DNA from: Streptococcus iniae
GTDB taxonomy: Bacteria > Bacillota > Bacilli > Lactobacillales > Streptococcaceae
DNA: 64,000 bases
Reading direction: 5' to 3'
Assembly (NCBI RefSeq): GCF_030732225.1
Contig: NZ_CP132230.1
Location: 1,764,001 to 1,828,000, forward strand
Both the position numbers and the translations under genes were made by a program. The notes beneath the pieces are model-generated. The model was not told where the DNA came from, made no database searches, and worked only from the letters and a program-made list of their open reading frames with translations. This document shows positions 49,304 through 52,798 of this stretch, piece by piece; positions within the stretch are counted from its first letter, which is position 1; each line of letters starts with the position of its first letter.

Positions 49304-50485
49304 ATGAGTTTATCCATCATGACAAAACACAAACACCTAACTCTCTCAGACCGTAATGACATCCAATCTGGTTTGGATAGAGGAGAAACCTTTAAAGCCA
49401 TCGGGCTTAATCTACTGAAACACCCTACTACTATCGCAAAAGAAGTCAAACGAAATAAGCAACTAAGAGAATCAACCAAAGACTGCCTAGACTGTCCGCT
49501 ACTAAGAAAAGCTCCCTATGTTTGTAATGGGTGTCCAAAGAGGAGGATCAACTGTGGTTACAAGAAGACCTTCTATCTTGCTAAGCAAGCTCAAAGGAAC
49601 TACGAAAAACTTTTAGTTGAATCTAGAGAAGGAATCCCTTTGAACAAAGAGACCTTCTGGAAAATAGATAGAGTCCTTTCTAATGGGGTCAAGAAGGGCC
49701 AACGTATCTATCATATCCTCAAAACCAACGATCTAGAAGTGAGTTCTTCAACCGTTTATCGACACATCAAGAAAGGCTACCTATCCATCACACCAATCGA
49801 CCTACCTAGAGCTGTGAAGTTCAAAAAAAGGCGAAAGAGCACACTCCCTCCTATTCCAAAAGCGATTAAAGAAGGGCGACGGTACGAGGATTTTATAGAA
49901 CACATGAACCAATCAGAGCTGAACTCCTGGCTTGAAATGGACACGGTTATTGGACGGATTGGTGGAAAGGTCCTTCTCACCTTCAATGTCGCCTTCTGTA
50001 ACTTCATCTTTGCCAAACTGATGGATTCTAAGACAGCTATCGAAACTGCTAAACACATACAGGTCATTAAGAGGACACTCTATGATAACAAGAGAGACTT
50101 CTTCAAACTCTTTCCTGTTATCCTAACGGATAATGGTGGGGAATTCGCTAGAGTGGATGATATTGAGATAGATGTTTGTGGACAGTCTCAACTCTTCTTT
50201 TGTGACCCTAATCGGTCTGACCAGAAAGCAAGAATCGAGAAGAATCATACCCTCGTGAGAGACATACTGCCTAAGGGGACTTCCTTCGACAACTTGACTC
50301 AAGAGGACATTAATCTGGCACTATCTCATATCAACAGCGTTAAGAGACAGGCTCTAAATGGTAAAACGGCTTATGAGCTATTCTCTTTTACTTACGGAAA
50401 AGACATCGCAAGTATACTCGGTATTGAGGAAATTACTGCGGAAGACGTCTGCCAATCTCCCAAACTATTAAAAGACAAAATCTAA
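49304..50485 (+). CDS. IS30-family transposase
   Basis: 393 residues, apparently intact. N-terminal helix-turn-helix (LTLSDRNDIQSGLDRGETFK...HPTTIAKEV), a Cys-rich segment (CLDCPLL...CNGCPKRRINC), and an IS30-type DDE core: WLEMDTVIGR (D), PVILTDNGGEF (D) and KARIEKNHTLVRDILPKGTS (E). ATG at 49319 (MTKHKHLTL) is an alternative start; no strong ribosome site. Usually in IS30 members the DDE residues and length are as here, so mobility is plausible. Confidence 0.9.
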   Translation: MSLSIMTKHKHLTLSDRNDIQSGLDRGETFKAIGLNLLKHPTTIAKEVKRNKQLRESTKDCLDCPLLRKAPYVCNGCPKRRINCGYKKTFYLAKQAQRNYEKLLVESREGIPLNKETFWKIDRVLSNGVKKGQRIYHILKTNDLEVSSSTVYRHIKKGYLSITPIDLPRAVKFKKRRKSTLPPIPKAIKEGRRYEDFIEHMNQSELNSWLEMDTVIGRIGGKVLLTFNVAFCNFIFAKLMDSKTAIETAKHIQVIKRTLYDNKRDFFKLFPVILTDNGGEFARVDDIEIDVCGQSQLFFCDPNRSDQKARIEKNHTLVRDILPKGTSFDNLTQEDINLALSHINSVKRQALNGKTAYELFSFTYGKDIASILGIEEITAEDVCQSPKLLKDKI

Positions 50486-50550
50486 TAAAAGACAAAATCT
50501 AACCTAATCAACTAACTGATACAACCTAAACGTCTCACACTAACTTCAAC

Positions 50551-50752
50551 CATAGCGGAACTTAATCTGAAACGCTTTCAGATGAGGAGGTTTTCTTGTA
50601 CCCTTTTTTTGCGATTTTTAACTCTGAAAACCTATGAAATCAAGTATTATAAAAACCAACGGAACTTAGTCTGAGACGGATTTTCGTTGGTTTTTATTGG
50701 TTTTTATCAGACTAAATTCCATTTCTACTAGAGGTGGAACTTACTTTGAGAA
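50551..50752. repeat. Cluster of IS30-end-like motifs beside the element
   Basis: GGAACTTAATCTGAAACG at 50557-50574, GGAACTTAGTCTGAGACG at 50661-50678, reverse GGAATTTAGTCTG at 50720-50708, GGAACTTACTTTGAGAA at 50736-50752. The second lies inside the loop side of an 11-bp hairpin AAAAACCAACG / CGTTGGTTTTT (50651-50695), itself terminator-like. Confidence 0.65.
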
Positions 50753-50760
50753 TTTAGCTT

Positions 50761-50796
50761 TTAAAAAGACACCCAATGCACACTTTGGATGTCTTC
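50761..50796 (-). terminator. Terminator of the mini-ORF transcript
   Basis: On the minus strand AAGACATCC (50795-50787) pairs with GGGTGTCTT (50774-50766; one G-U pair), followed by TTTTTAAAAG. It closes the transcript that starts near 51447 and touches the IS boundary. Confidence 0.65.
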
Positions 50797-50876
50797 ATTT
50801 CAGTTCTAAATTTGGATATAATCCTCTCTCACCATTTCAGAAGGAAGAAACAGACAACTGTGTTATCCCTTTTTTA

Positions 50877-50925
50877 AAAGGGATTAAGGTTAGCATTTTT
50901 ATAGCTTTAATCTCCTTTCTTTAGT
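50877..50925 (+). terminator. Hairpin, possible plus-strand terminator
   Basis: GGGATTAAGGTTAGC pairs with ATAGCTTTAATCTCC using G-U pairs on the plus strand, then TTTCTTTAG. On the minus strand the same arms would sequester an AGGAG sequence. Confidence 0.4.
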
Positions 50926-50992
50926 GAAATGATTTTTTTAATGATTCTTTTTTTGACATGTGTGAATAGTTACATTGGATTCACCCCTTTAG

Positions 50993-51046
50993 CTATAGTT
51001 TGCAACTCGCTAAAGTGTCTCCATTTTTGTATCTTGCAACGTTCAT
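50993..51046 (-). CDS. Mini-ORF 3: MNVARYKNGDTLASCKL
   Basis: 17 codons, AAAGGAGGA (AGGAGG at 51057-51052) five bases before the ATG. Contains ARYKNGD encoded GCA AGA TAC AAA AAT GGA GAC. Unlike the other two it continues seven residues past GD. Third and last of the tandem set. Not similar to any family I know; no signal peptide. Confidence 0.5.
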   Translation of the reverse strand: MNVARYKNGDTLASCKL

Positions 51047-51170
51047 AAGATCCTCCTTTAATAGAAAAACTCAATCCCTGTGCGACAATAACACTATTTA
51101 ACCTTTATCTTTCACCCTGAGTGCCAATAACAATAACTAACAGATTATGAATAACTAATCTCTGGAAAAA

Positions 51171-51212
51171 TTAGTCTCCATTCTTGTAACGTCCTTTATT
51201 GAATTTAAGCAT
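51171..51212 (-). CDS. Mini-ORF 2: MLKFNKGRYKNGD
   Basis: 13 codons, GAAAGG (51226-51221) eight bases before the ATG. Ends GRYKNGD encoded GGA CGT TAC AAG AAT GGA GAC, then TAA. Arg and Asn use codons different from mini-ORFs 1 and 3, while the amino acids are unchanged. Confidence 0.5.
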   Translation of the reverse strand: MLKFNKGRYKNGD

Positions 51213-51360
51213 ATACTATACCTTTCAATATTGGAGATTTTCCAAAACTTATACTGTAAAGAGCGCTCCTTTGGCCAAATAACGCATACTTCAATAAGTT
51301 CAACAATGTGATCACTTTGTTAGTTGTAAAAGTCAGTTTGCCTACCGTTGTTGGAGCTAC

Positions 51361-51402
51361 TTAGTCTCCGTTCTTGTACCGTGCGACATGTAGTTTCATC
51401 AT
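51361..51402 (-). CDS. Mini-ORF 1: MMKLHVARYKNGD
   Basis: 13 codons, ATAGGAGGAAA (AGGAGG at 51415-51410) seven bases before the first ATG, near-ideal. Ends ARYKNGD encoded GCA CGG TAC AAG AAC GGA GAC, then TAA. The frame after this stop stays open 51 more codons (to about 51208), which may be chance. First of the three in the transcript. Confidence 0.55.
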   Translation of the reverse strand: MMKLHVARYKNGD

Positions 51403-51453
51403 AAGATTTCCTCCTATAAATCTGTGTCATATGTCATCCTTCTTTATAGTTTC

Positions 51454-51482
51454 ATTATAATGTAAGCGTTTGCTTTTGTCAA
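51454..51482 (-). promoter_or_regulatory. Consensus promoter with perfect cre in its spacer
   Basis: TTGACA (51482-51477), exactly 17 bp, TATAAT (51459-51454): fully consensus. The plus-strand sequence ATGTAAGCGTTTGCTT (51460-51475) matches the cre consensus WTGNAANCGNWNNCWW at every position and fills the spacer, so CcpA should repress it in glucose. Confidence 0.85.
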
Positions 51483-51640
51483 GAAAAAATATTTCCCTAT
51501 GACATTTTCCACTTGCCTAATAAAAAGATAAGAAAAAAAAGCTGTTATCATTGTTTTTTGAAAACTCTGATAGAAGCTATTATTTTGACTTTCTAGCCTA
51601 GCCTTTTCGCATATTGAAAAAACTTTGCTACAATAGAGGT

Positions 51641-52798
51641 ATGTTAGATTTAGAAACTTACGGCATCACTATGTGGGACGCCAAAAAAATAGATGATTTT
51701 CGTCGAACACTACTCAACTGGTATGACCAAGAAAAGCGCGACCTCCCTTGGAGACGTAGCAATAACCCCTATCATATCTGGGTCTCAGAAATCATGCTCC
51801 AACAAACTCAAGTTCAAACTGTTATTCCTTATTACTATCGTTTTTTGGAATGGTTTCCAACTGTCGAAGCATTAGCTCATGCAAAAGAGGATAAGCTGCT
51901 TAAAGCATGGGAAGGACTAGGCTATTATTCCCGCGTTCGTAACATGCAAAAAGCTGCCCAACAAATCATGAGTGAGCATAATGGCATTTTCCCATCATCT
52001 TACCAAGCCATTTCCAGTCTAAAGGGAATTGGACCCTATACTGCTGGCGCTATTTCAAGTATTGCTTTTAATCTGCCAGAGCCTGCTGTTGATGGTAATG
52101 TCATGCGTGTTATGGCTCGCTTATTTGAAGTCAATTATGATATTGGCGACCCCAAGAATCGCAAGATTTTTCAAGCTATTATGGAATTGTTAATTGATCC
52201 CATAAGGCCAGGTGATTTCAACCAAGCACTGATGGATTTGGGCACCGATATCGAATCAGCAAAAACTCCAAAACCAGATCAATCACCAATTAAATTTTTC
52301 TGCGCAGCCTATTTAAATGGAACTTATGACAAATACCCCATTAAAGAACCTAAAAAGAAGCCACGCCCCATTCAAATTGAGGCTTTTGTCCTCCATAATA
52401 GCAAGGGAGAATTTTTACTTGAGAAAAATAATCAGGGGAGACTTTTAGGTGGATTTTGGTCTTTTCCAATCATGGAAACCGATCTTGTAGAACAGCAGCT
52501 AGACCTATTTGATAATTCCCCTCAAATGCTTGAAAGGGTATCAAAAAAGGCTGCATTTGAAAGTCATTACCAAATAACTCCCAAATGGAGTGAACAGATT
52601 TTTCCACAAGTCAAACATACCTTTAGCCATCAAAAATGGACCATTACTTTAAGTGAGGGTGTATTAGACAGTTTCACACCACAAACAGAAAGTGAAATGG
52701 CCTGGGTTTCTCCTGAAGATTTGGACAAATACCCTATGGCAACACCACAAAAGAAAATGATGGAAACTTATCTTAGAACCAAGAAGACCTTAATCTAG
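51641..52798 (+). CDS. mutY: A/G-specific adenine glycosylase MutY, cluster-less type
   Basis: 385 residues from ATG 51641 (MLDLETYGITMW, matching streptococcal MutY); the frame opens at 51614. It removes adenine opposite 8-oxoguanine. HhH motif LKGIGPYTAGAIS, catalytic Asp in EPAVDGNVMR, and catalytic Glu in SEIMLQQTQV. After ALMDLGTDIES the four Cys of the 4Fe-4S loop are absent (only one Cys, in KFFCAAYL). The C-terminal half is a NUDIX-like 8-oxoG recognition domain. A TACAAT box ends just before the ATG, so a leaderless or very short leader is possible. Confidence 0.93.
   Translation: MLDLETYGITMWDAKKIDDFRRTLLNWYDQEKRDLPWRRSNNPYHIWVSEIMLQQTQVQTVIPYYYRFLEWFPTVEALAHAKEDKLLKAWEGLGYYSRVRNMQKAAQQIMSEHNGIFPSSYQAISSLKGIGPYTAGAISSIAFNLPEPAVDGNVMRVMARLFEVNYDIGDPKNRKIFQAIMELLIDPIRPGDFNQALMDLGTDIESAKTPKPDQSPIKFFCAAYLNGTYDKYPIKEPKKKPRPIQIEAFVLHNSKGEFLLEKNNQGRLLGGFWSFPIMETDLVEQQLDLFDNSPQMLERVSKKAAFESHYQITPKWSEQIFPQVKHTFSHQKWTITLSEGVLDSFTPQTESEMAWVSPEDLDKYPMATPQKKMMETYLRTKKTLI

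Follow-up and report, generated by a model that had tools for sequence, protein, structure and literature searches.

A tandem array of mini-ORFs in Streptococcus iniae

The window, a stretch of 64,000 nucleotides from the genome of Streptococcus iniae, carries three tandem mini-ORFs on its minus strand, recovered both by direct reading and by a six-frame scan: mini-ORF 1 (51361..51402, ATG at 51402) encodes MMKLHVARYKNGD, mini-ORF 2 (51171..51212, ATG at 51212) MLKFNKGRYKNGD and mini-ORF 3 (50993..51046, ATG at 51046) MNVARYKNGDTLASCKL, each closed by a stop codon. The three ATGs and their peptides are present as the initial annotation had described them, and the Arg, Lys and Asn codons of the shared block, RYKNGD, do differ synonymously among the ORFs. 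Its claim of a Shine-Dalgarno before every ATG stands for mini-ORF 1 (AGGAGG) and mini-ORF 3 (AAAGGAGG), but mini-ORF 2 has just a weaker GAAAGG. Scanning all six frames of the 64-kb window with [RK][YFW]KNG[DE] returns these three ORFs only, and a degenerate DNA pattern gives 3 matches in the 2.18-Mb genome and 0 in its reversed control.

Upstream lies a promoter, TTGACA-N17-TATAAT (51454..51482, minus), agreeing with the consensus at 12/12 positions, and within it a cre-like sequence, AAGCAAACGCTTACA (51461..51475, minus), that would serve as an operator for CcpA. The transcription start expected from this promoter predicts a 5' leader, ATAAAGAAGGATGACA... (51403..51447, minus), which is conserved across species. 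Past the last ORF, at 50969..50990 (minus), an extended Shine-Dalgarno complementary to 16S rRNA, TAAAGGGGTGAATCC, is followed by ATGTAA at 50974-50969, with a calculated pairing energy of -17.3 kcal/mol with the S. iniae 16S 3' tail. An intrinsic terminator, GACATCC...GGGTGTC-TTTTT (50763..50793, minus), was found by a script scan, while a stricter scan did not report the window's copy. The predicted transcript extends from about 51447 to 50763 (~690 nt). The DNA flanking the shared block had been called unrelated; this is so among the window's three units but fails across species, where promoter, 5' leader, spacers and 3' region share conserved blocks.

Arrays across the genus Streptococcus

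Of 284 genomes of the genus, 47 contain RYKNGD with TAA or TAG directly behind it; the reversed pattern gives single matches in 8/284. All 64 of the stop-ended matches listed fall inside array regions fetched later. We collected 81 regions: 74 ranked by MutY similarity (L034-L107), two distant-clade regions (L108, L109), four picked because the pattern matched there (L110-L113) and the window. Mini-ORFs of the kind predicted for related streptococci were found in 60 of them, which together hold 235 ATG-started copies of [MFLI][NHD][VIL][GAS]RYKNGD; at least one such copy is present in 55/74 ranked regions, in 4/4 of those picked by pattern and in the window. The 21 regions lacking a copy include both distant-clade regions and two (L050, L068) where the contig ends within less than 450 bases. 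Arrays hold 1, 2, 3, 4, 5, 6 or 8 copies in 4, 13, 8, 13, 9, 10 and 3 cases, respectively. The mini-ORF observation is thus bigger than first noted, the arrays extending well beyond the window's three ORFs.

Outside the genus, a looser motif that omits the stop gave one single match and no array in the 51 of 295 family genomes searched, its reversed control matching in 3/51. Single matches of this looser motif outside arrays also occur within the genus, among the matches listed. Among the 80 loci listed for named relatives, the motif is present in those of S. ictaluri (L114) and S. uberis (L135).

A comparison of the window's array with phage and plasmid DNA gave no match, nor did a search of viral contigs with a narrow pattern covering some codon variants only; a phage, plasmid or viral origin accordingly has no match in these comparisons, by which distant arrays, given the DNA-level comparison and the narrow viral pattern, could be missed.

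Selection acts on the peptide

With at most one mismatch the motif is present in 241 copies, 235 of which have an in-frame ATG, and these specify 174 distinct peptides. For RYKNGD itself pN is 0.040 and pS 0.930 (ratio 0.043, with synonymous sites near saturation) over 234 of the 235 copies, relic L047 being omitted; these copies are related by descent, so the counts are not independent draws. With the reading frame shifted by one or two bases, the same stretch gives ratios of 9.8 and 1.6, and the three residues preceding the motif are under weaker constraint (0.55). Non-synonymous changes affect only 28 of 1446 codons, K to R accounting for nine, and the motif Arg is freely encoded by CGC, CGT, CGG, AGG and AGA. 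A relaxed scan of the array strand yielded 23 relatives with one mismatch and 0 with two; on the opposite strand it yielded one two-mismatch match.

These comparisons clearly point to a peptide sequence protected by natural selection, which bears out what had been proposed from the window's three ORFs. The further statement, which excludes selection on DNA or RNA, goes too far when the entire locus is considered, since RNA-level elements are conserved too. One might read the motif as a chance or codon-biased coincidence, the ORFs being very short and the reversed pattern finding occasional matches of its own. The confinement of the true matches to arrays and the pN/pS ratio refute a chance origin, and we regard it as extremely improbable.

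Promoter, operator, terminator and neighborhood

A promoter agreeing with the consensus in at least 9 of 12 positions precedes 57/60 arrays, and in 55/60 a cre-like operator lies inside it, as against 0/1069 control windows. The hint of the initial annotation at carbon source was therefore apt. Intrinsic terminators lie no more than 350 nt downstream of 45/60 arrays; ten shuffles give 2.7 on average. A stricter pattern combining promoter and cre matches the S. iniae genome once, at this array; it matches 23 of 157 genomes, mostly at arrays and in some cases at other places. On these signals the arrays look like separate transcription units, and the array gene is probably repressed by sugar. 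In the main text of a CcpA-binding study of group A Streptococcus there is no mention of mutY or rpsF (PMC8359418).

On one side of most arrays lies a divergent mutY; the other side has rpsF-ssb-rpsR in many and variable genes elsewhere, which we take from their sequences to be pilus-like genes, ABC transporter genes and others. Thirteen regions (L046, L054, L055, L056, L058, L060, L061, L062, L064, L076, L085, L092, L096) have a cargo hot spot beside the array, presumably comprising pilus-like operons with a signal peptidase, ABC transporters and an AMP-ligase with an acyltransferase. Cargo of some 5-8 kb separates mutY from the array in L054 and L058, and several other regions have a small gene there. 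With neighbors this variable and cargo intervening, the array gives the impression of an independent gene. A role as leader of the rpsF operon was ruled out by the array's own promoter and, in 45/60 arrays, a terminator; it is also opposed by what we take to be an IS30-like transposase gene between array and rpsF in the window (49304-50485, plus strand) and by the other genes that follow in many genomes.

The neighborhood also bears on whether the arrays form a set of precursors for a secreted peptide signal or a modified peptide (RiPP), as had been suggested initially. Tandem short copies with a constant core do recall multi-copy precursor genes. However, streptococcal pheromones of the Rgg/SHP, ComS and Phr types have an export signal or a hydrophobic mature peptide, with the receptor gene adjacent, and RiPP precursors combine leader and core with a modifying enzyme nearby. 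The array peptides are hydrophilic, those read contain no hydrophobic signal stretch, and most arrays share no neighboring gene for an exporter, regulator or modifying enzyme. Only mutY and, in many, rpsF-ssb-rpsR recur, so within the flanks collected (typically some 4 kb to one side, in places truncated by the contig end, with proteins compared by clustering only) there is no constant exporter or modifying enzyme; a modifying enzyme may be encoded elsewhere. The suggestion finds no support here, and we hold a secreted or modified peptide to be very unlikely.

Predicted translation starts and the start-stop element

An in-frame ATG behind a Shine-Dalgarno-like string is available to 221/235 copies, and in all 221 of these the motif starts 3-7 residues past that ATG, exactly 7 in 132. 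When the nearest ATG alone is considered, 160/235 have such a string and 120/235 a strong one. The farthest in-frame ATG stands at most 8 codons from the motif in 206/235. Tails of 0 to 29 codons follow GD, and the first codon behind it starts with A or T in 229/235, versus 69% at the next codon.

Certain sites (window 50902-50837 on the minus strand, and in L066, L072, L074, L075, L083 and L041) have a strong Shine-Dalgarno followed by AUU, AUC or AUA, not AUG. The frames so opened comprise 19-21 codons, several ending in ..YSL or ..SL before the stop on a conserved ACTCCTTATGA block; these are possible non-AUG starts. In L069, L073 and L077-L080 (oriented position about 735-760), AUU-started frames end in ..SYKNSE or ..DYENSE before the stop, and these may be diverged copies of the motif.

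The extended Shine-Dalgarno and start-stop noted in the window belong to a recurrent element with the consensus GTTGCAnAAAATAGCnnAAGGRGTGAnnCCAATGTAA, which follows the motif at a near-constant distance. We tallied 53 of the 56 such elements, the window's included; the three omitted are one each in L043 and L052 (atypical) and in L099 (no preceding motif). In 50/53 the element lies 36-44 nt from the motif start, i.e. 18-26 nt past GD; in two more it lies 39 nt past a decayed motif, and the L076 element is without such a motif. The right half of the block pairs with the 16S rRNA 3' end beyond the usual core. Extended Shine-Dalgarno motifs have been described in Staphylococcus aureus (PMC13009471). 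Among the 53 elements, 28 have ATG-stop and 2 GTG-stop, making 30/53 with an immediate start-stop; 14 open a two-to-five-residue frame, 7 have no start and 2 a longer frame. Single sequences hinted at a hairpin masking the Shine-Dalgarno, an idea dropped after RNAalifold predicted no pair on 45 distinct copies; judged by its alignment, the element is conserved as sequence, without a hairpin. The start-stop elements make no peptide, which suggests that translation itself matters on the array RNA.

This geometry is what pausing in cis could produce: the ribosome would stall once RYKNGD occupies the upper part of the exit tunnel, Asp then lying in the P site or close to it, and stalled ribosomes on successive ORFs would shape, protect or expose the same RNA while others dock at the start-stop elements. 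We consider this a serious possibility and the main rival of the reading preferred below, though less likely than it. It is favored by the motif's short distance from the Shine-Dalgarno-preceded ATG, by the closeness of the farthest in-frame ATG, by the restricted codon after GD and by the spacing and frequent immediate stop of the start-stop element; a narrow range of motif-to-start distances combined with a variable tail, and a restricted next codon, would accord with an effect of the nascent chain no less well than with a free peptide. It also draws on a loose likeness to ErmBL, a very short ORF with the same order of basic residue, Asn, any residue and Asp. ErmBL arrests at Asp10 after Arg7-Asn8-Val9, its critical residues being Arg7, Val9, Asp10 and Lys11 (PMC4935803). 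By comparison, the arrays have Lys in place of Arg7 and Gly in place of Val9, Lys follows Asp in 31/235, and Asp is codon 10 in 34 of the 221 Shine-Dalgarno-preceded ORFs; of the four critical residues, Asp10 alone is kept as such. Further, 53 tallied start-stop elements stand against 235 ORFs, and the copies seem partly redundant (see below). Unlike arrest leader peptides such as ErmBL, the arrays have no controlled gene following on the transcript: the terminator closes 45/60, read-through being possible in the other 15, and the neighbors vary.

RNA-level signals and database searches

In each of 12 arrays tested out of the 60, strong 16S-complementary sites outnumber the shuffle mean (in L037, 11 versus 1.7), although in 4/12 the highest shuffle reached the count. 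Two non-coding blocks are conserved, CTCCTTATGA in 34/60 arrays and GGTAGGCAAA in 18/60, and the former is a candidate segment for base pairing on other mRNAs. Pairing of the other conserved blocks with rRNA was dropped, exact matches across a 6.5-kb rRNA stretch being at most 10 nt. The whole-transcript fold of the window's array is not unusual (z -1.06). Rfam 15 at gathering score reports no family in window 50400-51800 nor in the arrays of 11 loci, where the sole match above cut-off was a tRNA outside the array. On the strand opposite the array, window 50838-50940 (plus) has a weak match to the Streptococcus sRNA SpF41 (26 bits versus a gathering score of 52; E 0.18).

These signals raise the alternative that the RNA itself is the effector, as a trans-acting sRNA or a ribosome-binding decoy, with the ORFs mainly keeping ribosomes loaded. 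The 16S-complementary sites and the two non-coding blocks speak for it; however, it leaves unexplained six residues held with free codons, and the unremarkable fold, the start-stop element devoid of a conserved hairpin and the lack of an Rfam family count against it. We deem it quite unlikely.

Damaged copies and relics

Damaged copies number 2/106 in arrays of 1-4 and 14/129 in arrays of 5-8 (Fisher p 0.008, K-to-R not scored as damage, and kinship ignored although related genomes are not independent). Removal of the two most decayed arrays gives p 0.10, and scoring K-to-R as damage p 0.09. The copies look partly redundant, as dosage predicts, and the signal is weak.

Three arrays are relics with no recognizable promoter, and two of them (L045, L053) have a damaged motif, the motif Arg codon of L053 being a stop; the third, L047, has retained one undamaged RYKNGD. 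All three relics still show the start-stop element, and L045 and L053 also show ACTCCTTATGA. Elsewhere, the first copy of L046, L048 and L076 (oriented position about 500) has no ATG but a strong Shine-Dalgarno with ATA at start distance, and in L076 the motif of this copy is RYTNGD.

A proposed role in the cell

The reading that we tentatively prefer, at somewhat less than even confidence, is that the arrays are catabolite-repressed mRNAs yielding many copies of a peptide that acts in trans inside the cell when the preferred sugar ends. Its foundations (the ORFs in tandem copies, selection at the peptide level, the promoter with its embedded operator, and the terminator) can be read from the DNA. 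From there we infer that CcpA controls the gene in vivo, that the ORFs are translated, and that free peptide accumulates and acts in trans. The array would be a separate streptococcal gene repressed by CcpA, its product a very short peptide of the form [M/F/L/I]-[N/H/D]-[V/I/L]-[G/A/S]-R-Y-K-N-G-D, translated from one to eight starts on a single RNA. On exhaustion of the preferred sugar CcpA would release the operator and the RNA would be made at a high rate; its several starts would fill the cytoplasm with peptide, which would bind an intracellular target (a protein or the ribosome) and so adjust metabolism or translation. The greater frequency of damaged copies in long arrays and the damaged motif in two of the three promoterless relics (L045, L053) argue for this reading, whereas the intact RYKNGD of L047, retained without a recognizable promoter, and the start-stop elements, which yield no peptide, argue against it.

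A further proposal, which we judge unlikely, joins several of these elements: on sugar exhaustion the cell would make a ribosome-catching RNA with RYKNGD mini-ORFs as arrest sites and extended-Shine-Dalgarno start-stop elements as docks. Their spacing could let two ribosomes stand back to back, and, as part of the same proposal, the RNA would hold ribosomes or 30S subunits in reserve or sense translation.

Relation to known systems and significance

Several known systems resemble the arrays in part. SR1/SR1P and SgrS/SgrT are carbon-regulated RNAs each encoding one small protein, and differ from the arrays in their single ORF and unrelated sequence. RsaI of Staphylococcus aureus is a CcpA-repressed small RNA acting on glucose limitation, in which we know of no tandem mini-ORFs. 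The PSM-alpha operon of Staphylococcus likewise has several related short ORFs on one transcript; its products, some 20 residues long, are secreted and amphipathic, whereas the array peptides are hydrophilic with no export signal seen. A parallel in kind is VcdRP of Vibrio cholerae, an RNA repressed by CRP and encoding a 29-aa protein that binds citrate synthase (PMC8672173). Both would be catabolite-controlled RNAs with a small ORF and a peptide acting inside the cell, the last as proposed for the arrays; VcdRP has one 29-aa ORF, and its target and a base-pairing segment are proven, whereas the arrays have one to eight short ORFs and CcpA-type control. Two of the three features of this type can be read from the array sequences, namely a predicted stand-alone transcript with a catabolite site and a small ORF under peptide-level selection, the third being a base-pairing segment, for which CTCCTTATGA is a candidate; we claim no homology.

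RYKNGD was not found in 5.39 million open-access papers, nor was anything there joining mutY, rpsF and Streptococcus, subscription journals and preprints lying outside this scope. The arrays thus apparently represent an undescribed gene that is widespread and strongly selected in Streptococcus, a genus of medical and agricultural importance, and shorter than the usual gene-calling length. Should the ribosome-catching proposal be true, multi-copy arrest arrays would constitute a new class of regulatory RNA. With more than two hundred naturally occurring versions of a single ten-residue motif whose codons are free, the arrays provide an unusually clean micropeptide case, and they tie the question of whether a micropeptide acts as a free molecule in the cell or while within the ribosome to carbon-catabolite control.
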